DNA from: Smithellaceae bacterium
GTDB lineage: Bacteria > Desulfobacterota > Syntrophia > Syntrophales > Smithellaceae
NCBI GenBank assembly: GCA_030690945.1
Contig: JAUYFM010000033.1
Coordinates: 1-64,000, forward strand
Direction: 5' to 3'
Length of the DNA: 64,000 nt
A program made the translations under genes and the position numbers. The notes below the pieces were generated by a model. It had not been told where the DNA came from and ran no database searches. It worked only from the letters and a program-made list of their open reading frames with translations. Positions 237 to 19,566 of this stretch are shown here, in pieces. Every line of letters begins with the position of its first letter. Position 1 is the stretch's first letter.

Positions 237-1121
237 CTATCTGCTCTCGTTCAGAATTGAAAGGAAAGCTTTCAGAAGCGCCGTGCGGTATTCGCCATTT
301 CTGGTTAGGATGATCAGGTTTCTTCGTAAATCAAGGGTGGTGTGCACTTCCGTAAGCCACTCATGAGAAAGCTCTCTAGCCACCGCCATTTTTGAAAGAC
401 AACTTACGCCTAAGCCTGCTTCAACGGCTTTCTTGATGGCCTCCGTGTGCCCAAGCTCCATGGATATGGTGCAGTTGATGCCTTTCTTCTTCAGCGCGGA
501 TTCAAATATCTCTCTGGTTCCGGATCCCTTTTCCCGCATGATCCATTGCGCTTTTTCCAGCATAGCCTTGGATGCTTTTTTTTGCATTGTCCAGGGGTGC
601 CTCTTTCCGACGACCACAACAAGCTCATCGTTCCTCCATTGTGTTGAGTGAAGCGAGCCGACATGGGAAGGTCCCTCGATAATTCCCATGTCCAACGCAC
701 CGGTTTCCACTGCATGCTCGATCTGGTCGGTATTGCCGACCTGCAGCCAGGCTTTGGCACGAGGATAGTTCCGGGTGAAGTCCCCAACGATCGTAGGAAG
801 AATATAGTTGCCAACTGTGGTGCTGGCCCCCACTTTCAATACGCCTATCGGCTCACCGACGGATTCAATCAGCAACTGCTCTATCGTGCCAACCTGCCGC
901 AGCACGTCCTGCGCCTGAGACAAAATCAGACGCCCCCGGTCATTGAGCAGTAACCGTCTGCCGCGGCGCTCAAAAAGGGGCGCGGCGGCAAATTTCTCCA
1001 ATTCGGCAATAGCCATGCTGACTGCCGATTGGGTGATGAACAACTGTTCGCCGGCTTTCGTAACATGCCGGCCACTGGCAACCTTTTCGAAAATCTCCAA
1101 CTGTCTCAGGGTAATTGTCAT
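237..1121 (-). CDS. LysR-type regulator, YeiE-like
   Basis: A 294-residue LysR regulator with an N-terminal winged helix-turn-helix (residues about 3-62; QLFITQSAVSMAIAELEKF is the recognition region) and a periplasmic-binding-protein-like effector domain (about 90-290). The segments GASTTVGNYILP and REKGSGTREIFE are typical of the YeiE/CbbR/CysB-related group. YeiE of Cronobacter is reported to bind sulfite and to control a YeiH-type exporter. Here a yeiH homologue is divergently transcribed from the same intergenic region, next to the dsr operon. That context makes a sulfite or sulfur-anion sensor likely by inference. Its start lies 10 bases from the conserved regulatory segment at 1132-1197, so autoregulation is probable. 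Confidence 0.85.
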   Translation of the reverse strand: MTITLRQLEIFEKVASGRHVTKAGEQLFITQSAVSMAIAELEKFAAAPLFERRGRRLLLNDRGRLILSQAQDVLRQVGTIEQLLIESVGEPIGVLKVGASTTVGNYILPTIVGDFTRNYPRAKAWLQVGNTDQIEHAVETGALDMGIIEGPSHVGSLHSTQWRNDELVVVVGKRHPWTMQKKASKAMLEKAQWIMREKGSGTREIFESALKKKGINCTISMELGHTEAIKKAVEAGLGVSCLSKMAVARELSHEWLTEVHTTLDLRRNLIILTRNGEYRTALLKAFLSILNESR

Positions 1122-1131
1122 GCCTAGCCTC

Positions 1132-1197
1132 TCATTAATAATACTGATGATTATTGTAAGAATAATGAATTTTTATTTATCATTAAAAAGATATATC
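1132..1197. promoter_or_regulatory. Putative LysR operator/promoter of lysR and yeiH
   Basis: An AT-rich segment between the divergent lysR and yeiH genes. It aligns without gaps to 2487-2552 upstream of dsrA, with about 53 of 66 bases identical. It contains the inverted pair ATAAT/ATTAT around ACTGATG, which suits a LysR-type T-N11-A site. A TATATC hexamer at its right end could serve as a -10 element. The function is inferred from duplication and position. Confidence 0.6.
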
Positions 1198-1230
1198 CTG
1201 CAAGCAGTAAAATTCAGCAGGGCAATTCAA

Positions 1231-1290
1231 TCAACACCTCGCGAGCTCTCTGCGGAGAATTAACGCTCGTCCCGCAGCAGCGGGATTAAC
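1231..1290 (+). repeat. Dispersed palindromic repeat, family A, short copy
   Basis: This copy shares both ends with the longer copies at 26556 and 45192: the left end TCAACaCCTCGCGAGCT and the right end GGAGAATTAACGCTCGTCCC followed by GCAGCAGCGGGATTAA. It lacks about 40 central bases. The right end forms the hairpin CCCGC-agca-GCGGG. It lies in the yeiH leader, between the regulatory segment and the ribosome binding site. Confidence 0.75.
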
Positions 1291-1339
1291 GGCGCTGCAG
1301 GATGAATAGCCCTTTCCATATACACAGGAGAAAGCAATT

Positions 1340-2446
1340 ATGCGTCTGATAACAACAAGATGGAATAAGGTCACCCGGGGATCGAGTCCTATATGGAAGG
1401 GTCTACTCTTAGCTATCGGCGTTGCCGTAGTCGCTCGGTTACTGCATAAGCTAATCCCGGGGCCAATGTTGAACAAAGCGATCAGCGATATATTAATGGC
1501 GGTTGTACTAGGGCTTTTCATCCGAAATGCTCTCCGTGTTTCCGGGAGCTGCGAAGCAGGAATCAAATTTGCCCTGGAACATGTACTGCGTTTCGGAATC
1601 ATTCTCCTCGGTTTGCGCCTGAGCCTGCAGGATGTAGCGGCAACCGGCGGCGCGGCAGTGTTACTTGTTTTCACATGTATTGCGGTTGCGCTGTCAACGG
1701 CATACATTATCGGCCACCTGTTTAAAATCCCGCCCCGCCTCACGGCACTAATCGGAGTCGGAACCTCCATCTGCGGCAATACCGCCATCGTGGCAACTGC
1801 GCCCGCCATCGGGGCAAAGGAGGAGGAAGTCAGCTTCGCTGTCGCCGTTATCACACTCTTCGGTCTGATTGCAGTCATTATCTACCCGATGATAGGACAC
1901 ACCCTGGGATTGAGCGATACCGCTTTCGGGCTGTGGGCAGGCACCGCTGTCAACGACACATCACAGGTTGTGGCCGTCGGGTCTGCGTATAGTCAAACCG
2001 CGCTGAATGTTGCCACGATTGTGAAGTTGATGCGCAATACCATCATGGCGCCCCTTATCATCATGATCAGCCTGCTCCTGAACAACAAGATGACTTCGGA
2101 GGGCTCCTCCTTACCATCGACCGTTCCACGCGGAGGTATCCTGATCCCTTGGTTCGTGATTGGCTTCTTGACCATGTCGCTCATACGCACCATCGGCATC
2201 AGCACCGGTATTCTGCCACAGGACATCAACCGGCCGGGCACATTGCAAATGGCTGCGTTCGCACTCAAGGGTTTTGACGAGGCAGCAAAGTTCGCGATTC
2301 TCACCGCTCTTGCGGGCGTCGGTTTGGGCACGCGGCTTCAGGTCGTACTCAAGATTGGCCTGAAACCGTTCACATTAGGTCTGTGCGTTTCAGTTGTTCT
2401 CTCGATCGCCAGTCTGAGCCTGATTATGCTCTTTGGAATGGGATAA
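1340..2446 (+). CDS. yeiH: YeiH-family putative sulfur-anion transporter
   Basis: A 368-residue integral membrane protein of the UPF0324/YeiH family, annotated as putative sulfate exporters, with about ten hydrophobic segments. Family features visible are the GIILLGLRLSL segment, the GTSICGNTAIVATAPAI loop and the WAGTAVNDTSQVVAVG segment. An AGGAG ribosome site precedes ATG. It is divergent from the YeiE-like regulator and directly upstream of dsrA, the same regulator/transporter pairing as yeiE-yeiH in enterobacteria. Near a sulfite-producing and sulfite-consuming pathway, a role in sulfite export or relief is likely, but the transported ion is not established here. Confidence 0.85.
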   Translation: MRLITTRWNKVTRGSSPIWKGLLLAIGVAVVARLLHKLIPGPMLNKAISDILMAVVLGLFIRNALRVSGSCEAGIKFALEHVLRFGIILLGLRLSLQDVAATGGAAVLLVFTCIAVALSTAYIIGHLFKIPPRLTALIGVGTSICGNTAIVATAPAIGAKEEEVSFAVAVITLFGLIAVIIYPMIGHTLGLSDTAFGLWAGTAVNDTSQVVAVGSAYSQTALNVATIVKLMRNTIMAPLIIMISLLLNNKMTSEGSSLPSTVPRGGILIPWFVIGFLTMSLIRTIGISTGILPQDINRPGTLQMAAFALKGFDEAAKFAILTALAGVGLGTRLQVVLKIGLKPFTLGLCVSVVLSIASLSLIMLFGMG

Positions 2447-2486
2447 ATACGGCAGGTTCACAGGGGCAATCACCCTGTCCAGTCTT

Positions 2487-2552
2487 TCATGAATAATACT
2501 GATTAATATTATCAAAATTATAAATTGTTATTTATTATTAAAATGTCATATA
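2487..2552 (+). promoter_or_regulatory. Putative dsr operon promoter with duplicated LysR operator
   Basis: An ungapped near-copy of the lysR-yeiH intergenic segment (1132-1197), placed about 95 bases before the dsrA start. A candidate sigma-70 promoter lies in it: TTGTTA at 2525-2530 and TATAAT at 2549-2554, spaced 18 bases apart. A short hairpin (ACAGGG/CCCTGT, 2460-2478) just upstream may separate this transcript from yeiH. Function is inferred. Confidence 0.6.
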
Positions 2553-2647
2553 ATAAAAAAAATAAAGTCCGGTAAGGCAGGTCTTCGTCGGAATTTTATT
2601 CGGGCTTTAGGACCGAAAAAATGAACGGTATTGAGAGGAGGAAAATC

Positions 2648-3838
2648 ATGGCAAAATCAGATACCCCCCTTCTGGATGAACTGGAAAAGGGAAAGTGGCC
2701 AAGCTTTGTAAAAGACATGAAGCAAGCGGCACAAAAGAGTCCCATGGCCGAGGATCTCCTCCGCCAGTTGGAACTTTCTTATAAAGACAAAATCGGTCAT
2801 TGGAAGCATGGGGGTATTGTCGGCGTCAAGGGCTACGGTGCCGGCGTCATCGGGCGCTATTCGGATCGACCCGATCTGTTCCCCAATGTTCAGGCCTTTC
2901 ACACCATGAGGGTCAATCACCCCACAGGGTGGTTCTACAAGACGGATGCCCTGCGCAACCTCTGTGATGTCTGGGACAAACACGGCAGCAGTCTCACCAA
3001 TATGCACGGCGCAACGGGAGATGTCATTCTGCTGGGCACGAAAACCGAGCACCTTCAATCCTGTTTTGATGACCTTTCCGCGGCCGGTTTTGACCTTGGC
3101 GGCTCCGGCTCCGCCCTCCGGACACCCAGCGCCTGCGTCGGACCGGGACGTTGCGAATGGGCTTGCGTTGATAGTCTCGATGTTTGTTACAACCTCACCA
3201 TGCACTACCAGGATAAGATGCACCGTCCCATGTTTCCCTATAAATTCAAGATCAAGGTATCGGCCTGCGCCAATGATTGCGTCGCCTCCATCGCCCGGTC
3301 GGATTTTTCCGTCATCGGGACCTGGAAAGGAGACATTCAGATTAACCAGAAGGAAGTTCTCGCCTACGCCGTATCAGCCATCAATATTCAGACGGAAGTT
3401 TGTGACCTCTGCCCGACGAAGTGTATGGAATGGAACGGAAAAGAACTGAAGATATATAATGAGGACTGCACCCGCTGTATGCACTGCATCAACCTGATGT
3501 CGAAAGCCCTGCGGCCGGGCAAGGAGAGGGGCGCGACCATCCTCGTCGGTGGCAAGGCGCCTATTGTGCAAGGGGCTCTTCTTTCCTGGGTCATCGTGCC
3601 GTTTATGAAATTGGAACCGCCTTACACGGAACTCAAAGACTTGATTGACCGCATCCAGGATTGGTGGGACGAGCATGGCAAGTCCAGGGAAAGATTGGGC
3701 GAGTTAATCACGCGCCTGGGCATGAGGGTATTCCTGCGGGCCGTAGGCCTGCCCGCCGTTCCCCAGATGGTTAAAGCTCCCCGAACCAATCCGTATGTAT
3801 TCTTCTGGCCTGAAGAAATTCAAAAGGAGGTGAAGTAA
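2648..3838 (+). CDS. dsrA: Dissimilatory sulfite reductase, alpha subunit
   Basis: A 396-residue DsrA. With DsrB it forms the alpha2beta2 siroheme enzyme that reduces sulfite by four electrons and passes the sulfur to DsrC as a trisulfide. Visible features are the siroheme/[4Fe-4S] cysteines C163-x5-C169 and C207-x3-C211, the segment NMHGATGD, and an inserted ferredoxin domain (C252, C255, C259 and C274, C277, C280). The ATG at 2648 is chosen over an in-frame one at 2621 because GAGGAGG sits at the right distance before it and [20 protein letters not shown] is a typical DsrA N-terminus. It is first in a long + strand operon. The presence of DsrD marks it as reductive type. Confidence 0.98.
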
Positions 3839-3839
3839 G

Positions 3840-4901
3840 ATGGCAAAAACAGACATTGGTCCCCCTGACTATAAAACCATGCTGCCACCCGTCATTCAGC
3901 GAAATTACGGAAAATGGCTCTATCATGAAATTCTCAAACCGGGCGTGCTCATGCACGTTGCGGAATCCGGAGAGGCGCTCTATACTGTGCGCGCCGGATC
4001 ACCGCGACTGGTTTCGACGGATCACATCCGGGAAATCTGCGACATCGCGGAGAAATATTGCGACGGTTACCTGCGCTTTACGAGCCGTAACAATATTGAA
4101 TTTCTTCTGGACGACAAGGATAAAGTCGAGCCCCTGATTGCCGAACTGGCCACGCGCAACTATCCTGTCGGCGGCACCGGACACTCCATCTCGAACATCG
4201 TCCACACCCAGGGCTGGGTCCACTGCCACACCCCCGCCACCGATGCCTCGGGACCCGTCAAGGCCCTCATGGATGAGATCTATGAGTATTTCGTAACCTC
4301 AACCTTGCCGGCCCATGTCCGGATTGCCCTGGCCTGCTGCCTGAACATGTGCGGCGCCGTGCACTGCTCCGACATCGCCATTCTGGGTATTCACCGCACA
4401 GTGCCTAAGGTGGACAACACCCGCGTACCGAACATGTGTGAAATCCCGTCCACGGTAGCTTCCTGCCCCACAGGCGCCATCCGGGGTGATATGAAGAACA
4501 AAACCATCACCGTCAATGACGAGAAGTGCATGTATTGCGGAAACTGTTATACCGTTTGTCCGGCCATGCCGATTGCCGATCCCGAAAACGACGGAATATC
4601 CATCTGGGTCGGAGGCAAAGTCTCCAACGCCCGAAGCGCTCCTAAGTTTTCCAAGCTGGCAATTCCTTTTCTTCCCAACAACCCGCCGCGCTGGCCGGAG
4701 GTTGTGGATGCCGTGAAGAACATCATCGAAGTCTATGCAAGCCACGCCCGAAAGCATGAACGGGTCGGCGAATGGATCGATCGCGTCGGCTGGGAGCGGT
4801 TCTTCACCCTGACAGGCATTCCGTTTACGGACAAGCATATCGACGATTTCGATATGGCAACGGAAACATTCCGAACATCTACGCAGTTCAAATGGGGGTG
4901 A
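3840..4901 (+). CDS. dsrB: Dissimilatory sulfite reductase, beta subunit
   Basis: A 353-residue DsrB that begins one base after the dsrA stop and uses a near-perfect AAGGAGGTG site inside the dsrA end. It carries the catalytic siroheme cluster in this enzyme family. The [11 protein letters not shown] cysteine region is near residues 166-176, and a ferredoxin domain with CPTGAI and [12 protein letters not shown] follows near 205-245. Length and cysteine spacing are normal, and nothing appears damaged. Confidence 0.98.
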
Positions 4902-4903
4902 AC

Positions 4904-5143
4904 ATGAGCGAGGACTTGAAAAAACAGATCGTCGACCTTTTTCACGAAAAATCCAAGGGTGACAAAAAGATGTTTTACATCCGGGACGTCACCAAATGGC
5001 TCCCCGACGTGGACCGGCATACCATTCATGATGCCGTGAAAGTACTGCTCGATGAGGGCGCGCTGGTGTACTGGTCAAGTGGCAGCTCAACATATCTCGT
5101 GCTGGCCGAATTCTTTCCGAAAGAAGAAGGATCGCGCTCTTAA
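4904..5143 (+). CDS. dsrD: DsrD, allosteric activator of DsrAB
   Basis: A 79-residue winged-helix protein starting MSEDLKKQIVDLFHEKSKG, with the conserved segment YIRDVTKWLPD. The start at 4904 lies just after the dsrB stop, with a GGGGGTG ribosome site. DsrD has been described as an activator of DsrAB in sulfate reducers. It is found with reductive, not oxidative, dsr systems, so it indicates that this operon reduces sulfite. Confidence 0.95.
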   Translation: MSEDLKKQIVDLFHEKSKGDKKMFYIRDVTKWLPDVDRHTIHDAVKVLLDEGALVYWSSGSSTYLVLAEFFPKEEGSRS

Positions 5144-5158: not shown

Positions 5159-6598
5159 ATGAACCGATCCTGCCCACGTCTGATTGTGGCCGCCCTGCGG
5201 GGTGGTGCGGGAAAGACCACACTTTCCGTCGCCATGGCCGTTGCCTGGCAAAAGCAAGGCATTCCGGTCGTGCCTTTCAAAAAGGGACCGGATTATATCG
5301 ACGCGGCCTGGCTTTCCCTGGCGGCATCTCGTCCCTGTTACAATCTGGATACCTATCTGATGGGTTCCGGTGAGGTCGTCCGCTCTTTTTCACGTCATGC
5401 CGCAGAAGGCGCCGTTTCCCTCATTGAAGGCAACCGGGGACTCTTTGACGGAGTCAATGCCGCGGGGGAATTCAGCACAGCCGAACTGGCCAAGCTCCTC
5501 AATGCACCCGTCATTCTGGTTGTGGACTGCGATAAAGTAACACGAACAGCGGCTGCCATGGTCATGGGCTGCAAGAGTCTTGATCCCGACGTCGATATCC
5601 GGGGCGTCATCCTGAGCCGGGTGAACGGTAGCCGTCATGCGGCCGTTATCCGGCAGTCCATTGAGGAATATGCCGGACTTCCCATCTATGGCACTGTGCC
5701 ACGGATGACGGATCTTCCCTTTACGGATCGGCACCTGGGATTAATCCCACCCCAGGAGCACGACCGCATTGAGCGCGCCCTGGACAGGGCGGGCGTTATC
5801 GCCCAGGACTACCTGGACATTCCAGGACTTCTGAATGTTGCCGAAAGTGCGGCGCCCTGGAGTGTTGATGCATTTCCCAATCCAGCCAACCCCGATCAAA
5901 GAGGTGAAGAGCCTGTCACAATCGGCGTGATCAAAGATGCCGCCTTTCAGTTTTATTATTCCGAAAATTTGGAGGCCCTGAGCGATCGGGGCGCAAAAAT
6001 TGTGGAGATCAGCGCCCTTGATGAAAAAAGCCTCCCGGACGTAGATGCCTTATACATCGGCGGTGGTTTTCCCGAAACCCAGGCCGGTCGCCTCGCCCAA
6101 AACGATGCTTTCCGCGGTTCCCTGAAAGCGGCGGCCGAAGCAGGTCTGCCGATTTACGCTGAATGCGGAGGCTTCATTTACCTGGGTGAATCTCTGACCA
6201 TCGGCGATAAACATTATCCGATGGTCGGCGCGCTGCCCGTTGCCTTCGGTATGGAAAAGCGGCTGCAGGGCCACGGATACACGACCTTGACCGTGGATCA
6301 GGAAAACCATTTTTTCCCCGTCGGCACGAAGATCAGAGGCCACGAGTTTCATTATTGCAGAATCCTGTCCCAAAAGGAAGACGACGCTCATACGGCCTAC
6401 CACGTCCTGCGAGGGACAGGAATGGATGGCCAGCGCGACGGCCTGTGCAGAAAAAATATCCTGGCGGGTTTCACCCACCTGCACGCACTGGGAACACCCC
6501 AATGGGCCGAGGCTCTCATCGGCGCAGCCAGGCAATATCGTAGCGCCGAACAAAACAAGGCGGCTTGTCCCCCTTCGCGCCACCTCGAGGGTGGTTGA
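5159..6598 (+). CDS. dsrN: DsrN, siroheme amidase (CbiA/CobB family)
   Basis: A 479-residue glutamine-dependent amidotransferase related to cobyrinate a,c-diamide synthase. The N-terminal P-loop ATP domain has ALRGGAGKTT at residues 12-21. The C-terminal class I glutaminase domain has its nucleophile in YAECGGF (Cys about 336). A second segment, GHEFHYC, is usual for CbiA. In dsr operons this protein is thought to amidate siroheme for DsrAB. It sits between dsrD and dsrC on the same transcript. A run of eight G follows its stop at 6604-6611. Confidence 0.92.
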   Translation: MNRSCPRLIVAALRGGAGKTTLSVAMAVAWQKQGIPVVPFKKGPDYIDAAWLSLAASRPCYNLDTYLMGSGEVVRSFSRHAAEGAVSLIEGNRGLFDGVNAAGEFSTAELAKLLNAPVILVVDCDKVTRTAAAMVMGCKSLDPDVDIRGVILSRVNGSRHAAVIRQSIEEYAGLPIYGTVPRMTDLPFTDRHLGLIPPQEHDRIERALDRAGVIAQDYLDIPGLLNVAESAAPWSVDAFPNPANPDQRGEEPVTIGVIKDAAFQFYYSENLEALSDRGAKIVEISALDEKSLPDVDALYIGGGFPETQAGRLAQNDAFRGSLKAAAEAGLPIYAECGGFIYLGESLTIGDKHYPMVGALPVAFGMEKRLQGHGYTTLTVDQENHFFPVGTKIRGHEFHYCRILSQKEDDAHTAYHVLRGTGMDGQRDGLCRKNILAGFTHLHALGTPQWAEALIGAARQYRSAEQNKAACPPSRHLEGG

Positions 6599-6689: not shown

Positions 6690-7010
6690 ATGCCACAAAT
6701 TGAATTAGCAGGAAAAAAGTACGAAGTGGATGAAGACGGATTTCTTCAGGAACTCGATAAATGGAATGAAGAGTTCGCACAGGCTTACGCACACACAGAG
6801 GACATTGAAGGGACGCTCACGGAAGAACATTGGAAACTCATCAATTATCTGCGGAATTATTATCAGCAGTTCGGCATCGCGCCGATGATCCGAAAAATCT
6901 GTAAAGACCTGGGGATCGACATGAAGAAGCTCTATGAGCTCTTTCCGACCGGACCGGCCAAAGGCGCCTGCAAGCTGGCGGGCCTTTCAAAACCGACGGG
7001 GTGCGTATAA
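6690..7010 (+). CDS. dsrC: DsrC sulfur carrier
   Basis: A 106-residue DsrC with the full C-terminal arm: Cys94 and the penultimate Cys105 are separated by exactly ten residues and the protein ends PTGCV. These two cysteines carry the trisulfide made by DsrAB, which DsrMKJOP then reduces. The start follows an ideal CAGGAGG site. It is embedded between dsrN and the first dsrM-like gene. Having both cysteines identifies a true DsrC and not a TusE or a regulatory homologue. Confidence 0.98.
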   Translation: MPQIELAGKKYEVDEDGFLQELDKWNEEFAQAYAHTEDIEGTLTEEHWKLINYLRNYYQQFGIAPMIRKICKDLGIDMKKLYELFPTGPAKGACKLAGLSKPTGCV

Positions 7011-7038: not shown

Positions 7039-7980
7039 ATGGAAACGCTGATTATCTATCTGACCTATATAGCCTACGTGTTCATCGTTGCGGTGTACAC
7101 GATCAAGGTAGTGGGATGGCTGAGGATGCCGCCGCACATCCGGTGGGATCTTTACCCTGTGATCCATGAAAAGCATTACCACTATGGCGGTTCCTATTAC
7201 GAACAACAGGAATGGTGGACAAAGCCCCGTCCCAAAAATCGCTGGCGAAGCCTTTTGTATTCGTTAAAAGACAATTTATACATGGGCCAGTACTATAAAA
7301 GCAAACCCCTCTACTGGCTGTTTCTTCTACCGTGGCACCTGGGATTCATTCTCATTATTACATTCCATATCCTCTGCTTCTTTGCAGCCACGGCCATGCT
7401 CGGAGGATTGGATATCGGAGCTGCCTCAGGTCAACTCGCGGGGGTGGCGTTTTACTATCTCCTGCTTGTAACAGGAGGGATCGCTTTCGTGACGGGAACA
7501 TTCGGGAGTATCGGCATGGGAATTATCCGTTTGGCCGACCGTTCTTTGAGGAAATACTCCATGCCGATGAATTTTTTCAATTATCTCTTCTTCCTGGTTG
7601 TCTACGGCAGCGGCCTTTTTGCCTGGCTAGTCCTGGATCCAACCCTGGATGAATACCGCACGTACTGGTTGGGGCTGATCACTCTGTCCCCGCCTGTGCT
7701 TCACCCGATGACATTACTGCATATCATCCTGTTCGATATCTTCCTCATCTATCTGCCGTTTACCCGTTCGACGCACTACATCACGCGAATACTTGCTTAT
7801 TTCTTCATCCGCTGGGATGACGAGCCGAATCAGCGTGGCAGTAAGATGGAGGGGCAGATCAATGCTCTCCTGGCACAGAAAGTTTCCTGGGAAGGACCGC
7901 ATATCGCAACGGGAAAGACCTGGGTTGAGGTGGCCATAGAACCGGGATTCCCCGATGCGAAAAAAGATCATAAAGGATAG
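7039..7980 (+). CDS. DsrM-like membrane b-type cytochrome (extra copy)
   Basis: A 313-residue membrane protein with about five to six hydrophobic segments, resembling the NarI/DsrM/HdrE cytochrome b family that oxidises quinol. Histidines lie in the membrane segments (for example LPWHLGF and ITFHILCF). It has a distinctive soluble N-terminal loop rich in His and Tyr after the first helix. It is paired with the dsrK-like gene 3 bases downstream. It is more divergent than the second dsrM at 9579, which is the canonical one. It probably forms a second MK-type quinone/heterodisulfide module; its partner substrate is unknown. Confidence 0.8.
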   Translation: METLIIYLTYIAYVFIVAVYTIKVVGWLRMPPHIRWDLYPVIHEKHYHYGGSYYEQQEWWTKPRPKNRWRSLLYSLKDNLYMGQYYKSKPLYWLFLLPWHLGFILIITFHILCFFAATAMLGGLDIGAASGQLAGVAFYYLLLVTGGIAFVTGTFGSIGMGIIRLADRSLRKYSMPMNFFNYLFFLVVYGSGLFAWLVLDPTLDEYRTYWLGLITLSPPVLHPMTLLHIILFDIFLIYLPFTRSTHYITRILAYFFIRWDDEPNQRGSKMEGQINALLAQKVSWEGPHIATGKTWVEVAIEPGFPDAKKDHKG

Positions 7981-7983
7981 TCA

Positions 7984-9588
7984 ATGAATAAGATGATCCA
8001 TATTAAAGATTTCAGCCGCCCCGGCGGACAATTAACGGAGATAGATCCCGCGGAGCTTATGCCCCTGCCGCCGCCATACGATAAGATGGAGAAAGCGCCG
8101 ATTAGACAGCTCACGGATGACCAACGCAAGCGTATGGATGCGTCGCTCGACGGCATCGTCGCTATCGGCCTTACTCCGCCTGCAACCCCGGAGGAGGAGA
8201 AGGCTTTCATTGAAAAATTCCTTGCCGGTCTGGAAAAACTCTTCACGGTAGAAAATAACTGGACGTTTCTCCAGCCGCTTGTCCATACGCTGGATTACTG
8301 CGTAAAGTGTCAAGTTTGCTCGGACGCCTGCCCGACATACGAGGCCAGCGGCCATCAGGAGATCTATCGCCCTACGATGCGACCGGAGATTCTCCGCAGA
8401 ATCATCAGCACTTACATCAAAAAGGAAAATTCCCTGTTAAGAAAGTTTAAGGACAGCGATATCGATCTTAACTGGCAGACACTGGCAAGGCTTGCGGAGC
8501 TTGCCTACAGGTGCACTCTCTGCAGGCGTTGCGCTCAAGTCTGTCTCTTGGGTTGCGATAACGCGCTCATCAGCAGGGAGATACGGAAAATATTCAGCCA
8601 GCAGATGGGAATCGCCCCCAAGGAGATCCACGAGAAGGGTTCCGTCCAGCAGCTCAAAGTCGGTTCCTCGACGGGGATGACGCCTGCGGCCCTGAGGAAT
8701 GTTTTGGAGTTTGCCGAAGAGGAAATCGAGGAGAAGACGGGCCGGAAGATCAAGATTCCTGTGGACAAGAAAGGGGCGGATATGCTTCTCATCCACAACG
8801 CCGGTGAATTCCTGGCCTGGCCGGAAAACCTGGAGGCTTTTGCCATCATTCTGGATGCCGCCGGTGTGGACTGGACAATCTCCTCCGAGATTACCGGTTA
8901 CGACTCCGTGAATTACGGCGTCTGGTACGACGACTTCCAGTTCGCCCGGGTGGCTATTCGCCAGTCCCAGGTAGCAAAAAATCTGAGTGTCCGCAAGATC
9001 TCCCTGGGGGAATGCGGCCATGCTCATAAGGCGGGTATCGTTATTGCCGACCGTGTTCTCACGGGCGACCTCAACATCCCCAGGGAAAGTATCCTTCCGC
9101 TTTTGGAAGATATCGTTTTAAGCGGAAAGATTAAGCTGGATCCCAGCCGAAATAATTTCCCCGTAACGCTCCATGATCCATGCAACATGGTCAGACTGAT
9201 GGGCATCGTTAAGCCGCAACGGCGGATTCTGGAGAAGATCTGCCCGCAATTCCGGGAAATGACGCCCCACGGTGTTGAAAATTATTGCTGCGGTGGTGGA
9301 AGCGGTTTCGCCATCACGCAATCGACTAATTTCCCCGATTGGCGTTCCGCCGTTTCCGGGCGGATGAAACTCAAACAGATTCTTGATGCCTTCCAGGATG
9401 TTCCCGGGGCGGAAATCAAGAAGTATGTCTGCGCACCTTGTTCGAATTGCAAAGGTCAGTTCCGCGACATGTTCGAATATTATGGCGTCTGGAAAAAATC
9501 AGGGATTCTCTATGGTGGATTGGTGGAGTTGATCGTCAACGCCATGGTGGATATAGAAAAACCCTTTATTCAGTGGGAATGGCATTGA
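7984..9588 (+). CDS. DsrK/HdrD-like iron-sulfur protein (extra copy)
   Basis: A 534-residue HdrD-family protein. It has two ferredoxin-type motifs (C106, C109, C112, C116 and C177, C180, C183, C187). The C-terminal CCG domain is complete: C400, C435-C436, and CAPC at 483-486. The second ferredoxin motif reads CTLCRRCAQVCLLGC, with Leu where Pro is usual and a further Cys. Unlike canonical DsrK, it keeps the CxxC that completes the noncubane cluster site in HdrD. That suggests a thiol-disulfide or trisulfide reductase that works with the preceding cytochrome. DsrC is a plausible substrate, but this is inference. Confidence 0.85.
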   Translation: MNKMIHIKDFSRPGGQLTEIDPAELMPLPPPYDKMEKAPIRQLTDDQRKRMDASLDGIVAIGLTPPATPEEEKAFIEKFLAGLEKLFTVENNWTFLQPLVHTLDYCVKCQVCSDACPTYEASGHQEIYRPTMRPEILRRIISTYIKKENSLLRKFKDSDIDLNWQTLARLAELAYRCTLCRRCAQVCLLGCDNALISREIRKIFSQQMGIAPKEIHEKGSVQQLKVGSSTGMTPAALRNVLEFAEEEIEEKTGRKIKIPVDKKGADMLLIHNAGEFLAWPENLEAFAIILDAAGVDWTISSEITGYDSVNYGVWYDDFQFARVAIRQSQVAKNLSVRKISLGECGHAHKAGIVIADRVLTGDLNIPRESILPLLEDIVLSGKIKLDPSRNNFPVTLHDPCNMVRLMGIVKPQRRILEKICPQFREMTPHGVENYCCGGGSGFAITQSTNFPDWRSAVSGRMKLKQILDAFQDVPGAEIKKYVCAPCSNCKGQFRDMFEYYGVWKKSGILYGGLVELIVNAMVDIEKPFIQWEWH

Positions 9589-10583
9589 ACGCAATGAAGA
9601 ACATCAGCATATCACTGATTGCCGTTTTAATCCTGGCGGCACTCCCCACAGGCTTGTCCACACTCGGCTTATCCGGCCTCATAACGAACATCCTGCCGTA
9701 TGTCGCCATAGCCGTTTTTCTGATCGGCTTCGTCTTTCGTATTCTCTTGTGGGCCAAATCACCCGTCCCCTTCCGCATTCCTACGACTTGCGGCCAGGGG
9801 AAATCGCTGCCCTGGATCAAGTCCAATCCGGTAGAAAGCCCGGCAGGGTATTGGGGTGTGATTGCAAGAATGGCCCAGGAAATATTCCTGTTTCGGTCGC
9901 TCTTCCGGAATACGGACGTGGCGATTGTTGACGGACGGCCCGTTTACGGCAGTGCCAAATGGCTCTGGTTTTGTGGTCTTCTGTTCCACTGGTCGTTGCT
10001 GATTATCGTGCTTCGACACCTGCGCTTTTTCGTCGAACCGATCGCCCCCTGGATTGGCGCTCTCTCCGCTCTGGACGGATTCTTCGAGATCGGCATCCCA
10101 ACTCTTTATCTGAGCGATGCCGCCATCCTCGTTGGGCTGACATTCCTTTTTCTGCGCCGGGTGGTTGTCCCGCAGGTGCGTTATATCTCCTTGTTCACCG
10201 ATTATTTTTCACTGCTGCTGATCGCCGGCGTCGTAAGCACAGGCCTCCTGATGAGGCACTTTTCCCCCGCCGATCTCAACGCGGTAAAAACCATGGCAAT
10301 GGGCTGGGTGACCTTTTCGCCCGTTGTTCCTCAGGGGATCAACCCTGTTTTTTACATCCACCTGTGCTTCGTCTTCGTCCTTCTGGCCTGGTTTCCCGCA
10401 AGCAAGCTGATGCACGCCGGAGGTGTCTTTCTCAGCCCGACCCGCAACCTGGCCAACGACAGCCGGATGCGACGGCATATCAATCCCTGGAATGCCCCCG
10501 TCAAAGTTCATACCTATGAAGAATACGAAGATGAGTTCCGGGACAAAATGAAGGCATCGGGATTACCCGTGGAAAAGGAGTAG
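9579..10583 (+). CDS. dsrM: DsrM, membrane cytochrome b of DsrMKJOP
   Basis: The canonical DsrM of about 334 residues, with five or more membrane helices and conserved segments such as FRIPTTCGQGKSLPWI, GLLFHWSLLIIVLRHLRFF and NPVFYIHLCFVFVLLAWFP. It oxidises menaquinol and passes electrons to DsrK. The start is uncertain. ATG at 9579 overlaps the preceding gene by 10 bases, and ATG at 9594 is also possible; upstream in-frame sequence is only overlap with the previous gene. It is followed two bases later by dsrK. Confidence 0.92.
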   Translation: MALNAMKNISISLIAVLILAALPTGLSTLGLSGLITNILPYVAIAVFLIGFVFRILLWAKSPVPFRIPTTCGQGKSLPWIKSNPVESPAGYWGVIARMAQEIFLFRSLFRNTDVAIVDGRPVYGSAKWLWFCGLLFHWSLLIIVLRHLRFFVEPIAPWIGALSALDGFFEIGIPTLYLSDAAILVGLTFLFLRRVVVPQVRYISLFTDYFSLLLIAGVVSTGLLMRHFSPADLNAVKTMAMGWVTFSPVVPQGINPVFYIHLCFVFVLLAWFPASKLMHAGGVFLSPTRNLANDSRMRRHINPWNAPVKVHTYEEYEDEFRDKMKASGLPVEKE

Positions 10584-10585
10584 CC

Positions 10586-12181
10586 GTGTCGTTTGCCAAG
10601 ATACCCAAACCGGATCAGTTGATCAAAATCCGCTACGCGCCACCCGAGACGGCCTGGATGAACACACCTGTCGATTTTCGTCCTGGAACGTGGAGCTACA
10701 GCGGGGCTGCGAAAAACCTGACCTATCTGGACCTTCCGAACCCGCGAGCCTGGCAGCCCGCGGACGAAGACTGGAAACTGCCGGACAACTGGCAGGCCAT
10801 TATCTTAAACGGTATGAAGGAGCGCCTGGAAAAACATCGCTCCTTCCGCCTCTTCATGGACGTCTGTGTCCGGTGCGGCGCCTGTGCCGATAAATGCCAT
10901 TTCTATATCGGCTCCGGCGATCCGAAAAACATGCCGGTGCTGCGGGCTGAACTTTTGCGCTCCGTTTATCGCCGCTACTTTACGACGTCGGGTAAGGTTT
11001 TCGGTAAACTCGCCGGCGCCCGCGACCTGACCGTCGACGTTTTGAAAGAATGGTTTTACTACTTCTATCAATGCACGGAGTGCCGCCGGTGTTCAGTCTT
11101 CTGCCCCTTCGGCATCGACCAGGCGGAGATCACGATGATGGGCCGGGAACTTCTCAATCTTGTGGGGTGCAACATCAACTGGGTTATCGAACCTGCGGCT
11201 AACTGTTTCCGGACGGGCAATCACCTGGGCATTCAGCCCGGCGGCATCAAGGACATGCTCGAATTCATGGCCGACGACATCGAAGACCGGACGGGTATCC
11301 GGGTAAACGTGCCCATCAATAAGAAAGGCGCCGATATTCTCTTTGTCACACCGTCAGGCGATTACTTTGCCGATCCGGGGACGTTTACCTGCATGGGTTA
11401 CCTGATGCTCTTCCACGAGATCGGCCTGAATTATACCTTCAGCACCTACGCCTCCGAAGGAGGAAACTTCGGTCTTTTCACGTCCGCTGAAATGGTCAAG
11501 CGCCTCAACGCCAAGATCTACGCTGAAGCAAAACGGCTCGGCGTCAAGTGGATTCTGGGCGGTGAATGCGGCCACATGTGGCGGGTCATTCACCAGTACA
11601 TGGACACGATGAACGGCCCCGCCGATTTTCTTCAGGAACCGATCTCTCCCATCACGGGAACCCGCTTCGAAAATGCCCGCGCCACGAAGATGGTCCATAT
11701 CACGGAATTTACCGCCGACCTCATCCGGAATGGAAAGCTGAAACTCGATCCCCAAAGAAACGACCATATCAGGCTTACCTTTCACGATTCATGCAATCCC
11801 GCACGGGCCATGGGGCTTTTCGAAGAACCGAGGTATATCATTCAAAAAACCTGCAATCATTTCTTTGAAATGGCTGAAGATACCATCCGGGAAAAGACTT
11901 TATGCTGCGGCGCCGGCGCGGGTCTCGGAAATGATGAAAACATGGAGATGCGGATGCGCGGTGGCATGCCGAGGGCCATGGCCGTGAAAAAGGTTGTGGA
12001 AAAGCACGATGTGAATCGTCTGGGCTGCATCTGCGCCATTGACCGGGCGACGCTGACGTCGCTCATGGATTACTGGGTGCCGGGGGTGACGGTTATGGGC
12101 GTCCACGAACTTTTAGCCAACGCGCTGGTCATGACGGGAGAAAAGGAACGAACGACGGATTTGAGGGGCGACAACATTTAG
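10586..12181 (+). CDS. dsrK: DsrK, catalytic iron-sulfur subunit of DsrMKJOP
   Basis: A 531-residue canonical DsrK. The N-terminus and first ferredoxin region match the family closely (FMDVCVRCGACADKCHFYIG, C94-C104). The second motif is CTECRRCSVFCP (C163-C173). The C-terminal cluster site has C403 and C440-C441 but then CICAIDR (C481, C483) in place of CxxC, as is usual in DsrK. It receives electrons from DsrM and is thought to reduce the DsrC trisulfide on the cytoplasmic side. A palindromic element separates its stop from dsrJ. Confidence 0.95.
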   Translation: MSFAKIPKPDQLIKIRYAPPETAWMNTPVDFRPGTWSYSGAAKNLTYLDLPNPRAWQPADEDWKLPDNWQAIILNGMKERLEKHRSFRLFMDVCVRCGACADKCHFYIGSGDPKNMPVLRAELLRSVYRRYFTTSGKVFGKLAGARDLTVDVLKEWFYYFYQCTECRRCSVFCPFGIDQAEITMMGRELLNLVGCNINWVIEPAANCFRTGNHLGIQPGGIKDMLEFMADDIEDRTGIRVNVPINKKGADILFVTPSGDYFADPGTFTCMGYLMLFHEIGLNYTFSTYASEGGNFGLFTSAEMVKRLNAKIYAEAKRLGVKWILGGECGHMWRVIHQYMDTMNGPADFLQEPISPITGTRFENARATKMVHITEFTADLIRNGKLKLDPQRNDHIRLTFHDSCNPARAMGLFEEPRYIIQKTCNHFFEMAEDTIREKTLCCGAGAGLGNDENMEMRMRGGMPRAMAVKKVVEKHDVNRLGCICAIDRATLTSLMDYWVPGVTVMGVHELLANALVMTGEKERTTDLRGDNI

Positions 12182-12191
12182 AAATCCCCCC

Positions 12192-12319
12192 TCACCCTAA
12201 CCCTCTACCCTGAAGGGCACACGTCCCGCAAGGGGAGAGGGGACAATGCTGATGATTGACTTGTCTCCCCTCCCTCGCGTGCCCTTCAGGGTATGAGGGG
12301 AGGGGCAGGGGGAGGGTGA
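12192..12319. repeat. Large imperfect palindrome inside the dsr operon
   Basis: Inverted arms lie between dsrK and dsrJ. The outer pair is TCACCCT/AGGGTGA at 12192-12198 and 12313-12319. The inner perfect 15-base arm TACCCTGAAGGGCAC lies at 12206-12220, with its complement at 12279-12293. A nested stem (GGGGACAA with TTGTCTCCCC) fills the centre. The right half shares its core (GCGTGcCCTTCAGGgTATG) with a piece of the repeat at 63188. It looks like an inserted REP- or MITE-like element. In RNA it would fold into a long hairpin between the two cistrons. Confidence 0.75.
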
Positions 12320-12380
12320 AAGCATAACAAAATAAATTTGCGAGAATGGCAAATTAGATTTTAGGCGGGATGCATTGAAG

Positions 12381-12785
12381 ATGAAAAAAAATAAATGGGG
12401 CTTAATCATATTGGGACTTGTGATCTTTATCATCGTGATCACTTTCCCCTTCTGGTACGGCAAAGGGAAAACATCCCCGGCACCAACGCTGAGCCTCGAT
12501 ACGCCCGCCATTGCGCAATTGAAAGAAAAGCGCTGCGTGGAAGACACATCGTTCATGCGCGAAAGCCATATGAAGTTCCTCGGCACCTGGCGCGACGGAG
12601 CTGTCCGCGAAGGAAAGCGTCTTCACACGGCACGCGACGGACGTGTTTTCGAGGTAAGCCTTTCCGGCACCTGCCTGAAATGCCACAGCAACAAGGAACA
12701 GTTCTGCGACCGGTGCCACAACTATCTGGGCGCCAAGCCTTCCTGCTTCAGTTGCCATAACATTCCCGGGGAGGTAAAAAAATGA
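12381..12785 (+). CDS. dsrJ: DsrJ, triheme cytochrome c
   Basis: A 134-residue protein with one N-terminal membrane helix (about 6-26) and three heme-binding CxxCH motifs: CLKCH (98-102), CDRCH (109-113) and CFSCH (122-126). This is the DsrJ pattern of a membrane-anchored periplasmic triheme cytochrome in the DsrMKJOP complex. The ATG at 12381 is preferred over an in-frame TTG six bases upstream. It overlaps dsrO by four bases. Confidence 0.93.
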   Translation: MKKNKWGLIILGLVIFIIVITFPFWYGKGKTSPAPTLSLDTPAIAQLKEKRCVEDTSFMRESHMKFLGTWRDGAVREGKRLHTARDGRVFEVSLSGTCLKCHSNKEQFCDRCHNYLGAKPSCFSCHNIPGEVKK

Positions 12786-13570
12786 CGACGAACCGCAGAG
12801 AATTTTTGAAAATAGCGGGGGTGTCCACACTCTCCCTGATCGCGCCTGCAATCGTCTGCCCGGCCTGGGCCAAAGACAAAATTATCCCCGTAAGCAATTC
12901 CCCGGAGGCCTTGTCACCATCAAAGGCTCTCACGGCCAAACGCTGGGCGATGGCCATAGATGCTTCAAAATGCCCCGCTGATTGCGTGGATTGCATCGCA
13001 GCGTGTCACGCAACACACAACGTCCCCGGTTTCGGCAACCCCAAGGACGAGGTCAAATGGATCTGGCAAGAAAAGTTTGCCGCCGCCTTTCCCAATGAGA
13101 GCCATGCGTATCTTAGGGAATCTCTCCAAAAGCAGCAATTGCCTGTTTTGTGCAACCATTGCGCCAATCCGCCCTGTGTCCGGGTTTGCCCTACGAAGGC
13201 CACGTTCCAGAGGCACGACGGCATCGTGATGATGGACTATCACCGCTGCATCGGTTGCAGGCTTTGCATGGCCGCCTGTCCCTACGGCGCAAGAAGCATG
13301 AACTACCGGGACCCCCGGCCTTTTATCGCCAGAATAAACCCGGATTACCCGACGCGAACCAAAGGCGTTGTGGAGAAATGCAACTTCTGCCAGGAAAGGC
13401 TGGCCAAAGGCCTTGGGCCTGCCTGCGTTGTGGCCTGTAAGGAAAAGGCCCTGGTTTTCGGAGATATGGAAAATCCCCAATCGGAAATCCGTCTTCTCCT
13501 GGAAAAACGTTTTAACCTGCTGAGGCGTGCAAGCCTAGGAACTAAGCCGCAGATTTATTATATTTTATGA
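12782..13570 (+). CDS. dsrO: DsrO, periplasmic ferredoxin subunit
   Basis: A 262-residue protein with a twin-arginine signal (NRREFLK at residues 4-10, then a hydrophobic core ending near PAWA). A ferredoxin region follows with several four-cysteine groups, such as CPADCVDCIAAC, CNHCANPPCVRVCP, CIGCRLCMAACP and CNFCQERL, enough for four [4Fe-4S] clusters. DsrO moves electrons on the periplasmic face between DsrP and DsrJ. It starts inside the end of dsrJ (ATGA overlap). Confidence 0.95.
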   Translation: MTTNRREFLKIAGVSTLSLIAPAIVCPAWAKDKIIPVSNSPEALSPSKALTAKRWAMAIDASKCPADCVDCIAACHATHNVPGFGNPKDEVKWIWQEKFAAAFPNESHAYLRESLQKQQLPVLCNHCANPPCVRVCPTKATFQRHDGIVMMDYHRCIGCRLCMAACPYGARSMNYRDPRPFIARINPDYPTRTKGVVEKCNFCQERLAKGLGPACVVACKEKALVFGDMENPQSEIRLLLEKRFNLLRRASLGTKPQIYYIL

Positions 13571-13577
13571 GGATATT

Positions 13578-14738
13578 ATGCTGGAAAAATCTCTGAAAGG
13601 CAGCCGCGGATACTGGATCTGGATCATCTTTTTACTGATTGTCGCCGCGATCGGGTTTTTCTTCTACCTTCGCCAGTTGGATTATGGGTTAGGCGTCACG
13701 GGGATGAGCCGGGACGTGTCTTGGGGGCTTTATATCGCCCAGTTCACCTTCCTGGTCGGCATTGCGGCTTCGGCGGTCATGCTCGTTCTTCCGTATTATC
13801 TTCATGACTACAAGGCCTTCGGAAAAATCACCGTCCTGGGTGAATTTCTGGCCGTTGCCGCCGTTATCATGTGCGTACTCTTTGTCTTCGTTGATCTCGG
13901 CCAACCCTCCCGTGTGATGAACGTCCTCTTGCATCCGTCGCCAACCTCGATTCTTTTCTGGGACATGATCGTCCTTTCCGGCTATCTCCTGATCAATATT
14001 TTTACCGGTTGGGTCATTCTGACCTGCAATCGCAAAGAAGTCCCGCCACCCGGCTGGGTCAAGCCGCTGATCTATCTCTCGATCCCCTGGGCCATCAGCA
14101 TCCACACGGTAACCGCTTTTATTTATGCCGGTCTTCCGGGAAGAAGCTTCTGGCTGACGGCGATTATGGCCCCCCGCTTTCTGGCCTCCGCCTTTGCCTC
14201 CGGCCCCGCCCTCTTGATTATCTTCTGCCTGATCTTAAAACGTTACGGGCGTTTTGACGCAGGCGAAAAAGCGATTCAGGCCCTCTCCAAGATCGTGGCC
14301 TATGCCCTCGCGACAAGCATCTTCTTTGTCCTTGTGGAACTGTTCACCGCCTTTTACAGCCAGATTCCGGAACAGGCCCAGCACTTTCTTTATCTTTTCA
14401 CTGGTCTGGAAGGCCACACGAAACTCGTTCCCTGGATGTGGACATCCGCAGTTCTTGCCTTTGCCGCCCTGGGAATGCTGATCATCCCGCCAATCCGCCG
14501 CAACGATGGATGGCTCGCCGTAGCCTGCGTTTTTGTGTTTGTTTCGCTCTGGATTGAGAAGGGCCTCGGTCTGGTCGTGACCGGTTTTATCCCCTCGCCA
14601 TTGGAGACCATCACCGAATACGTTCCGACGGGAGCGGAAATCGCCATCACCCTCGGTGTTTGGGCGATTGGATTCATGATTTTGACGATCCTTTATAGGA
14701 TATTTATTACCGTGCACGACGAAAAGGAAAACCCATGA
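13578..14738 (+). CDS. dsrP: DsrP, NrfD-type membrane subunit
   Basis: A 386-residue polytopic protein of the NrfD/PsrC family with about ten membrane helices. The segments SRDVSWGLYIAQFTFLVG and PSRVMNVLLHPSPTSILFWD are typical of DsrP. It exchanges electrons with the quinone pool and forms the second membrane part of DsrMKJOP. Its last codons overlap the start of the next gene (ATGA), so that gene is translationally coupled to the dsr operon. Confidence 0.95.
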   Translation: MLEKSLKGSRGYWIWIIFLLIVAAIGFFFYLRQLDYGLGVTGMSRDVSWGLYIAQFTFLVGIAASAVMLVLPYYLHDYKAFGKITVLGEFLAVAAVIMCVLFVFVDLGQPSRVMNVLLHPSPTSILFWDMIVLSGYLLINIFTGWVILTCNRKEVPPPGWVKPLIYLSIPWAISIHTVTAFIYAGLPGRSFWLTAIMAPRFLASAFASGPALLIIFCLILKRYGRFDAGEKAIQALSKIVAYALATSIFFVLVELFTAFYSQIPEQAQHFLYLFTGLEGHTKLVPWMWTSAVLAFAALGMLIIPPIRRNDGWLAVACVFVFVSLWIEKGLGLVVTGFIPSPLETITEYVPTGAEIAITLGVWAIGFMILTILYRIFITVHDEKENP

Positions 14739-16432: not shown

Positions 16433-16580
16433 TTTGGTCAGGACAGATTGCAGCCTGCAAGGTATGGACAGGTCTTCTCCGGTTGCATGGACATTCCGCA
16501 CACATTCGGGACGTATTCAGCAGAGGGAGCAACCGATGAGAGCAGGAAAGTTTGATACCTAAAAATCAATGGAGTGTTCA

Positions 16581-17780
16581 TTGAAGATTCTAGTCTTAAA
16601 TTGCGGCAGTTCATCGCTTAAATACAAACTCTTTGAGCTGGGGGACAACAACGTCCTGGCCCAGGGGCAGGCGGACCGTATCGGCATGACCGACGCCGTC
16701 TTTCAACATGATGCGCAAGGGCACGAAACCTTTCTGAACAAAAAACCGCTCGCCAATCATCACGAAGCCGTGCATGCTCTGTTGACCCATCTTGTCGACG
16801 GTCAGCAGGGAATTATGACGGAGATGAGCGAAATTGGCGGCGTCGGACACCGGGTGGTTCACGGCGGAGAACATTTCCGCACCTCCGTTGTCGTTGATCC
16901 CGCAATACGGGAAATCCTCGAGACAACCAAGAAACTCGCCCCGCTCCATAACCCGCCGAACCTCATGGGAATTGATGTCTGCACAAGCCTTATGCCCGGC
17001 GTACCCCAGGTGGCTGTCTTCGACACAGCTTTCCACCAGACCATGCCGGCGTATGCATACACCTACGCGATCCCTTATCATTACTACATAGAGGATCATG
17101 TCCGCCGCTACGGCTTCCACGGCATCTCACATCGTTATGTAGCCTGCCGGACGGCGGAAATCCTGGGGAAGAATATGGAGGCGTTGAGGATCATCACCTG
17201 CCATCTCGGAGCAGGCTCGAGTCTCTGCGCTGTGGCGGCAGGAAAATCCCTGGATACCTCCATGGGTTTTACACCTTTGTCGGGTCTCGTTATGGGGACA
17301 CGCTCGGGTGATATCGATCCGGCGCTTGTTTCCTTCCTTGTGGAGAAGGAGCAGAGTTCTCTGACGCAGGTAATGGACATGCTGAATCGCGAGAGCGGCG
17401 TTTTCGGCATCTCCGGCATATCGCCCGATTTTCGCGATCTGGAAAAGGAAGCCTCGCTCGGCAATGAGCGGGCACGTCTGGCGCTTGATGCCTATGCCTA
17501 TAGTGTGGCCAAGGGGATTGGTTCCCTGATTCCGGCCGCAGGCGGTCTTGATGTTCTTGTCTTTACCGCGGGGGTCGGCGAACACTCACCAAACATGCGG
17601 CGGCGGATCTGCGCATTTCTTTCCTGGCTGGGCATTTCCCTGGATGAAGAGAAGAATCTGAACGGCATTCTTGAAGAGGATATCTCCCTGTCCGGGACAA
17701 AGGTAAAAATTCTCGTCGTTCCAACGGATGAGGAAAAAATGATCGCCGAGGAAACTCGGGCGGTTTTGCAAAAACAATAA
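16581..17780 (+). CDS. ackA: Acetate kinase
   Basis: A 399-residue acetate kinase from the TTG at 16581. Here [18 protein letters not shown] aligns with the usual family start and GGAG lies seven bases before. An in-frame ATG at 16569 would add four residues. Family motifs are visible: [48 protein letters not shown] and [10 protein letters not shown]. It makes ATP and acetate from acetyl phosphate. No phosphotransacetylase is nearby; the next gene, xsc, makes acetyl phosphate directly, so the two form a substrate-level phosphorylation pair. Confidence 0.96.
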
Positions 17781-17805: not shown

Positions 17806-19566
17806 ATGAAAAAAGTAAAAATGACACCCAGCGAAGCGATTGTCGAGACATTGCTGGCGGAAGGGGTGGATCACGTATGCGGCATAGTGGGTTCCGCCTT
17901 TATGGACATGCTCGATCTTTTTCCGGCTGCGGGGATCAAATTTATACCCGTCCGCCATGAACAGAGCGCCGCTCATATGGAAGACGCCTATTGCCGGGTT
18001 TCGGGCCGGTGCGGTGTCGTCACAGGCCAGAACGGCCCCGGCATAACCAATATGGTCACGTCGGTTGCCGCGGCAAACATGGGCCATACGCCCCTAGTCA
18101 TTATTTCCCCGTCGGCGGGGACGCCCACCATCGGCTGGGACGGCTTCCAGGAATGCGACCAGATGTCCGTCTTTAAGGCCGTCACGAAAGCCGTCGTCCG
18201 CGTTCCCCATCCTAAAAGAGCAGCTGATTGTCTGAGAACGGCCTTCCGCATCGCTTATGCCGACCGGGGCGCTGTTCTTTATGATATTCCCCGTGATTAT
18301 TTCTACGGAGAGATCGAAGAAACCATCCTGAAACCCTCCCAATACCGGGTAGATGCCAGGGGATGCGGCTCCATGGAACAATTGAACAGGGCTGCCGAAC
18401 TTCTGTCCAAAGCCAAAAATCCTGTGATCGTTTCCGGCCGTGGGGTCGTCGATGCCAACGCGCTGGACATCGTCAAGGCCATCGCCGAACACCTGACTGC
18501 ACCCGTGGCGGTCACCTATCTCCATAATGACGCCTTCTACGGAAATCATCCTTTATCCATCGGCCCCATCGGCTATATGGGTTCCAAGGCGGCCATGAAG
18601 ACGCTGGCCAAGGCTGACGTCATGCTCGCCATCGGGACAAGGCTTTCCGTCTTCGGAACGCTTCCCCAGTATGACATCAATTATTTCCCGGAGAATGCCA
18701 AGATTATCCAAATCGACATCAATCCCAAACACATTGCCCGAACACACCCCATCGAGGTCGGAATCATCGGCGATGCCAAGGAAGCCACAGTGGAAATCCT
18801 GAAGCGCCTGAAGGCCCTGGACCGAGGCCGCAAGCCCGATGCCAAACGCCTGGCAGCCGTGGCCAGGGAAAAGAAGATCTGGGAAAAAGAGATTGTCGAT
18901 TTAGCCATGGTTGACGGCAATCCCATGAACCCAAGAAGAGTCTTGCTCGAAATCTCCAAAGCTCTGCCGGACAATGCCATCGTGTCCACTGATATCGGCA
19001 ATGTTGCTTCGACAGCCAACAGCTACCTCAAGTTCAACCAGTCGAGACGGCATATCGCCGCCCTGACCTTTGGCAACACCGGATTTGCCTATCCGGCGGC
19101 CCTCGGGGCGCAGATTGCTTGTCCCAAAGCGCCGGTCATCGCTATTGTCGGTGACGGCGCCTGGGGGATGAGTCTCCACGAGGTCAGCACCGCCGTGGAG
19201 CACAATCTGCCCGTTGTGGCCTGTGTTTTCCGGAACATGTGGTGGGGGGCCGAGGCGAAAAACCAGGTGGACTTCTATAACAATCGGTTCGTCGGTGTGG
19301 ACATTCCCACGCCGGAGAGTTTTGTTCCCGTCGCCAAGGCGATGGGAGCCAACGGCGTCCAGGTCAGTCGGCCCGAGGACATCAAGGAAGCCTTTCTGTC
19401 CTGTATCAAAAGCCGCAAGCCCACTGTGCTGGAATTTCTGGTGGACGGTAAGCAATTGGCCCCGCCCTTCAGGAAGGACGCACTGGCGTTGCCGACTCGA
19501 TTCCTGCCCAAGTACGCTCATCTGGATCATCACAACTGGTACAAAGGAGGCGTCAATGATTTATAA
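17806..19566 (+). CDS. xsc: Sulfoacetaldehyde acetyltransferase
   Basis: A 586-residue ThDP enzyme. Xsc converts sulfoacetaldehyde and phosphate to acetyl phosphate and sulfite. Family resemblance is strong at the N-terminus ([35 protein letters not shown]), at [11 protein letters not shown], at [13 protein letters not shown] and at [14 protein letters not shown] near residue 472. The ThDP-activating Glu is in RHEQ (E52) and the Mg/ThDP motif begins GDG near 449. This is closer to Xsc than to acetolactate synthase. It has an AGGAGG-type site, follows ackA by 25 bases, and ends overlapping the SDR gene. Its sulfite product is the DsrAB substrate. Confidence 0.93.

Follow-up and report, generated by a model that had tools for sequence, protein, structure and literature searches.

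A LysR-family regulator of the YeiE type probably controls both the anion transporter gene yeiH and the dsr operon through two copies of one operator, and we give this reading a probability of about 0.8. The window analysed is a 64 kb stretch of a Smithellaceae bacterium (Syntrophales) genome, labelled G000, and all coordinates refer to it.

Two copies of one operator precede yeiH and dsrA

In an earlier note on this DNA, bases 1132-1197 and 2487-2552 had been reported to align without gaps at about 53 of 66 positions. The repeat was indeed ungapped, and the exact count was 52 of 66 identities. The copies were also located where the note had placed them, the first between the LysR gene and yeiH and the second before dsrA (plus strand). 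When both intergenic regions were shuffled with dinucleotides preserved (n = 1000), the top 66-nt diagonal had 38 identities, and shuffling of the AT-rich parts alone (n = 5000) gave a maximum of 42 of 66. The features of this region are as follows.

237..1121, minus strand: YeiE-type LysR regulator, 294 aa (Pfam HTH_1 and LysR_substrate)
1133..1200, plus strand: op1, operator/promoter common to LysR and yeiH (68-column ungapped alignment, PWM, models R1 and R2)
1133-1149: op1 upstream box, CATTAATAATACTGATG
1165-1180: op1 second box, ATGAATTTTTATTTAT
1192-1197: op1 -10-like TATATC, a good -35 being absent
1229..1290, no strand: dispersed-repeat copy in the yeiH leader, outside the switch
1340..2446, plus strand: yeiH-family anion transporter gene (Pfam PF03601)
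2459..2487, no strand: probable 5'-end relic of a second LysR copy (repeat extension and comparison with genome G050)
2488..2555, plus strand: op2, second operator copy, 5' of dsrA (PWM, R1, R2, promoter pattern, identity with genome G007)
2488-2504: op2 upstream box, CATGAATAATACTGATT
2520-2535: op2 second box, ATAAATTGTTATTTAT, a perfect dyad
2525-2530 and 2549-2554: op2 -35 TTGTTA and -10 TATAAT (promoter pattern 10/12)

In both op1 and op2, the second box occupies the -35 position, which is the usual layout of the activation site of LysR regulators. The flanks of the two copies had been described as unlike, and this held only in part, as a repeat search widened the pair to 1109-1224 and 2464-2579 (116 nt, 71% identity). 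The left extension of copy 2 (AGGGGCAATCACCCTGTCCAG) is similar to the start of the LysR reading frame (AGGGTAATTGTCATGCCTAG) and therefore looks like the relic of a second LysR copy.

The regulator and its yeiH partner

The LysR protein carries a helix-turn-helix domain (PF00126, E = 5e-18) and a substrate-binding domain (PF03466, E = 2e-46). Among 55 families, its top two matches were the NCBIfam YeiE equivalog NF040889 (270 bits, under the cut-off of 480) and the subfamily NF008095 (252.8 bits, under the cut-off of 281); because it falls under both curated cut-offs, it is labelled here YeiE-type and not YeiE. The closest solved structures were 8sbf, 7erp and 8sbh. The Glu of the IEGP motif is kept as E149 and is invariant in seven relatives, its position being occupied by Ser in PDB 7fdf compared with 7erp. 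The divergent arrangement of LysR and yeiH around a conserved intergenic operator (1122-1339 in the window) was found again in G050, in G007 and at the Geobacter and Seleniivibrio loci.

The yeiH product scored 245.9 bits against PF03601 (cut-off 24.5), which assigns it to the family, and 164.7 bits against TIGR00698, under the cut-off of 232.6. The dispersed repeat in its leader, of about 50-60 nt, occurs at 40 or more places in the genome (40 of 40 scored, out of 84 candidates); it is absent from the leader of genome G046 and is also found near LysR in genome G037 (L174 3658-3708 and 4591-4642).

Two observations concern LysR proteins in other genomes. Loci L126-L133 and L137-L161 (Thermodesulfobacteria and Desulfobulbaceae) encode LysR proteins 43-51% identical, mostly without a yeiH neighbour in the flanks examined, and at L085 a LysR 88% identical is found in a bin labelled Bacteroidales, probably on a misbinned contig.

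The dsr operon and the probable source of sulfite

The genes downstream of op2 were assigned as follows.

2648..3838, plus strand: dsrA (TIGR02064, 562 bits, cut-off 393)
3840..4901, plus strand: dsrB (TIGR02066, 533.7 bits, cut-off 341.5)
4904..5143, plus strand: dsrD, probable start 4904 (Pfam PF08679, E = 1.5e-14)
5159..6598, plus strand: dsrN/cobB-type cobyrinic acid a,c-diamide synthase (TIGR00379, 447.8 bits)
6690..7010, plus strand: dsrC (PF04358, TIGR03342)
7039..14738, plus strand: genes of a dsrMKJOP-like membrane complex, collinear with dsrAB (first gene scanned, the rest named from position and ORF content)
14735-16432: CoA-disulfide-reductase-like gene
16569-17780: ackA
17806..19566, plus strand: xsc, sulfoacetaldehyde acetyltransferase (TIGR03457, 852 bits, cut-off 676)

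With dsrA and dsrB above their cut-offs and dsrD present, the operon is of the reductive type. The first gene of the membrane complex gave a Nitrate_red_gam match and a weak DsrM match. A dsrA start at 2621, in a longer ORF, was considered less likely than the ATG at 2648, which is preceded by AGGAGG (2636-2641). An RNA leader at 2556-2650 was also considered and rejected: the stretch is partly conserved in G007, it folded no better than shuffles (z 0.1 to -1.5), and an Rfam scan of it gave no match above threshold.

No match to sat, and none to aprA above cut-off, was obtained in G000 or in 19 relatives, which together make up the 20 family genomes with dsrA, and the gene content is therefore not that of sulfate reducers. 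The xsc gene lies 3' of dsr and ackA in the window, possibly within the dsr transcript, and was above cut-off in 15 of the same 20 genomes. Taken with the lack of sat and of aprA above cut-off, its position downstream of dsr indicates that sulfite probably comes from sulfonates. Sulfoacetaldehyde, cleaved by Xsc, is probably the intracellular source, and sulfite released inside the cell would fit a sulfite-sensing switch on dsr.

Salmonella YeiE binds DNA at the yeiE promoter and switches on yeiH in a sulfite-dependent manner; YeiE also binds sulfite and regulates cysJI (PMC12880088). As the window's regulator is nearest to YeiE-type regulators and this activation of yeiH depends on sulfite, sulfite is by analogy its most likely effector. 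A different effector (sulfide, sulfoacetaldehyde or another oxyanion) acting on the same LysR at op2, or repression of dsr, is possible at rather longer odds. A ligand cannot be read from the sequence of a LysR_substrate domain, and the presence of xsc in the same gene string makes sulfoacetaldehyde a plausible signal, but genomes such as Geobacter conserve both the LysR-yeiH pair and the operator, and the IEGP glutamate is retained; these points favour sulfite. Repression has a precedent in Salmonella YeiE, which keeps its own gene repressed when sulfite is lacking (PMC12880088), whereas a second box overlying the -35 region is consistent with activation.

Constraint and history of op2

Between the window and G007, which belongs to another genus, op2 was identical at 54 of 56 positions (96%), compared with 60% over the next 20 nt, 66% over the leader, and 54.7% and 69.3% at the four-fold degenerate sites of dsrA and dsrB, respectively. 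Identity of 96% in op2 against about 55% at the four-fold sites of dsrA implies that op2 is under constraint. The op2 of G007 shares 88% identity with that of the window and 79% with the op1 of its own genome, so that the two copies have been separate since before the lineages split, unless the region was exchanged. As a side observation, the dsrB of G007 (L067 4247-6518) is 97.7% identical to that of the window and its dsrA 87%, in line with the 69% and 55% at four-fold sites, and part of the operon may have been exchanged.

The arrangement in related genomes suggests how op2 reached its present place. In G050 the order is dsrA, op2, a LysR fragment (residues 1-111), about 18 kb of other sequence, yeiH, op1 and an intact LysR, and the yeiH match of G050 ends at 2458 of the window. 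The window would thus correspond to the G050 arrangement minus the 18 kb, with the 3' end of yeiH joined to the op2 region near 2458-2476, an order of events that we infer from the comparison. G046 resembles the window, with yeiH reduced to its two ends. In G037, LysR directly faces dsrA across one operator, the only strong site of that genome; this LysR, 96.9% identical, has an intact reading frame, and no yeiH homologue was found there. The LysR-yeiH pair of G007 is oriented the opposite way, with op2 before dsrA, and in genomes G005 and G006 LysR faces dsrA and another site precedes yeiH.

The LysR remnant at op2, together with the yeiH stop codon only 41 nt upstream, from which read-through into dsr is possible, could also mean that op2 is an inert relic of the duplication and that dsrA is transcribed from yeiH or from another promoter. 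This is unlikely, given that op2 was kept across two genera while neighbouring stretches and synonymous sites diverged, that the site persists in G037 and G050 without yeiH directly 5' of dsrA, and that op2 has a perfect dyad as its second box within a 10/12 promoter.

The operator is conserved beyond the window and follows the regulator

When named bacterial genomes were searched with the LysR alignment, 80 loci were recovered. At the loci of Geobacter, Geomonas, Seleniivibrio and other Desulfuromonadales, the LysR proteins were 50-68% identical and divergent from yeiH wherever the contig was long enough. From the LysR-yeiH intergenic regions, 40 sites, op1 and op2 included, fell into a gap-free alignment of 68 columns with a common layout: CATNAATNNNATTGATG, a spacer of about 15 nt, a second box with ATTTTTATTTATA at its end, and a TATA-like -10. 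On this alignment, the duplicated segment is more than a repeat within the window: it is the operator of the LysR-yeiH pair, and its conservation extends from Geobacter and Seleniivibrio to the present Syntrophales genome.

The specificity of the match was assayed with three models. An independent PWM, built from 36 LysR-yeiH sites with none from Syntrophales and with an AT-rich background, scored op1 at 30.1 bits and op2 at 29.6, the third-best place in the 64 kb being at -16.7. R2, a sequence-only model made from 29 of the non-Syntrophales sites, detected op1 (E = 4.2e-6) and op2 (E = 1.4e-4) and nothing else in the window up to E = 10. R1, whose training includes the family's own sites and among them the two of the window, gave E = 5.1e-11 for op1 and 1.8e-9 for op2 over the whole genome, and 0.11 for the next place. 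A larger regulon was rejected, as the R1 scan revealed no convincing third site in this genome. In E. coli, the yeiE-yeiH intergenic DNA was the top matrix match in its 9 kb and in the same orientation, with a low score of -11.8 (next, -33.4).

The linkage of operator and regulator was followed in a family sample of 51 genomes, 20 of them with dsrA, in which a LysR at least 77% identical was present in seven; most of the genomes compared are metagenome assemblies. The operator was found beside dsrA in all seven dsrA-bearing genomes with this LysR and in the dsrA region of none of the 13 without it. The seven belong to two genera and are not independent, so that a Fisher value of 1.3e-5 overstates the evidence. 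Conservation in relatives had been set beforehand as the test that could refute the proposal of the earlier note, and the segment passed it by tracking the regulator; the prediction of one LysR for both sites also gained support, as in distant lineages, too, the operator separates LysR from yeiH. A resemblance due merely to AT-rich promoter sequence, as the 11-14% G+C of the segment might suggest, or to the site of an unrelated regulator is very improbable, since dinucleotide-preserving shuffles reach at most 42 of 66 identities, more than 45 bits separate the two copies from the next site even with an AT-rich background, and the site follows the presence of this LysR.

Among the 13 dsrA-bearing genomes that lack the LysR, most carry a TTGACA-type promoter 5' of dsrA. 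G005 and G006 have the operator plus a downstream TTGACA-type dsrA promoter, and LysR control may therefore be partial there. No dsrA and LysR as close neighbours were found among 18 other genomes of the phylum with dsrA and a YeiE-like LysR, nor any LysR beside dsrA in the flanks examined at the Desulfobulbaceae and Thermodesulfobacteria loci. As far as sampled, the lack of adjacency in the 18 genomes makes the LysR-dsr link lineage-specific and no general rule.

Two minor observations were made in genomes without this LysR. Upstream of dsrA at L069-L080, a conserved promoter-like stretch is found (TTGACA, about 17 nt, GTACNATTCA), which could be the site of another dsr regulator. In G034, a weaker site of 27 bits precedes an orphan yeiH, 75% identical (L175, G034:C1:119500-123000), and the genome lacks a LysR to match it; this may be a decaying regulon.

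Relation to known systems

To our knowledge, the regulation of dsrAB is largely unknown. No report of LysR control of dsrAB, of a YeiH-dsr link or of a named regulator at the dsrAB promoter was found in the open-access literature (one library), which agrees with the view of the earlier note that LysR control of dsrAB would be a new link.

The arrangement is like that of YeiE-YeiH in Salmonella enterica and E. coli, with LysR divergent from yeiH and a common operator region (PMC12880088). The sulfite reductase target reported there is the assimilatory cysJI, whereas here the second operator copy lies at the dissimilatory dsrAB, and the window's LysR is under the curated YeiE cut-off. The YeiE homologue FinR of Pseudomonas aeruginosa is described as binding its own promoter whether or not sulfite is present, with sulfite altering which DNA sites are contacted; no dsr target is reported for it there, unlike what is proposed here (PMC12880088). 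The Geobacter, Geomonas and Seleniivibrio pairs share the 68-nt footprint, but no dsrA was found in the neighbourhoods examined and their yeiH is just 30-34% identical. SoxR and sHdrR of Hyphomicrobium also provide sulfur-responsive transcriptional control of sulfur-compound metabolism, but they are reported to be ArsR-type repressors that sense sulfane sulfur and control sulfur oxidation, not reductive dsrAB (PMC12423496).

Proposed mechanism

In the model that we propose, op1 is the ancient operator of the YeiE-type LysR, located between its own gene and yeiH. The LysR-operator unit would have been duplicated beside dsrA, giving op2, after which the second LysR copy decayed and op2 came to serve as the dsr promoter region. 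A LysR tetramer would sit on the upstream box (CATNAATNNNATTGATG type); once it has bound effector, it would shift onto the second box (ATNAATNNNNATTTAT type) overlapping the -35 region, and so bring RNA polymerase to the TATA-like -10. Most likely the effector would be sulfite freed from sulfoacetaldehyde by Xsc, so that one signal would induce the YeiH transporter along with the Dsr sulfite-reducing system, and LysR would limit its own expression by autoregulation.

We lean, with some reserve, towards a promoter capture, in which the duplicated YeiE-type operator replaced a TTGACA-type dsrAB promoter in sulfonate-using Syntrophales without sulfate-activation genes, so that intracellular sulfite would induce both its own respiratory reductase and a sulfite-resistance transporter. 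G005 and G006, with operator and TTGACA promoter, would then be intermediate states, and these sister genomes would make this a stepwise case of capture. If the mechanism holds, sulfite turns on its own respiration in a group of sulfonate-using anaerobes, and sulfite stress resistance by YeiE-YeiH, studied so far in enteric bacteria, becomes tied to sulfite respiration. With a defined protein, a 68-nt operator and a pathway-derived signal, dsrAB regulation becomes directly testable in vitro.

As a separate observation, a different, distant YeiH-family gene, 27% identical, lies just 5' of dsrA in several LysR-less genomes (L071 3981-4862, L078 2932-3636 and L079 3564-4268, probably also L069 and L070), and the YeiH-dsr link may therefore predate the link with LysR.
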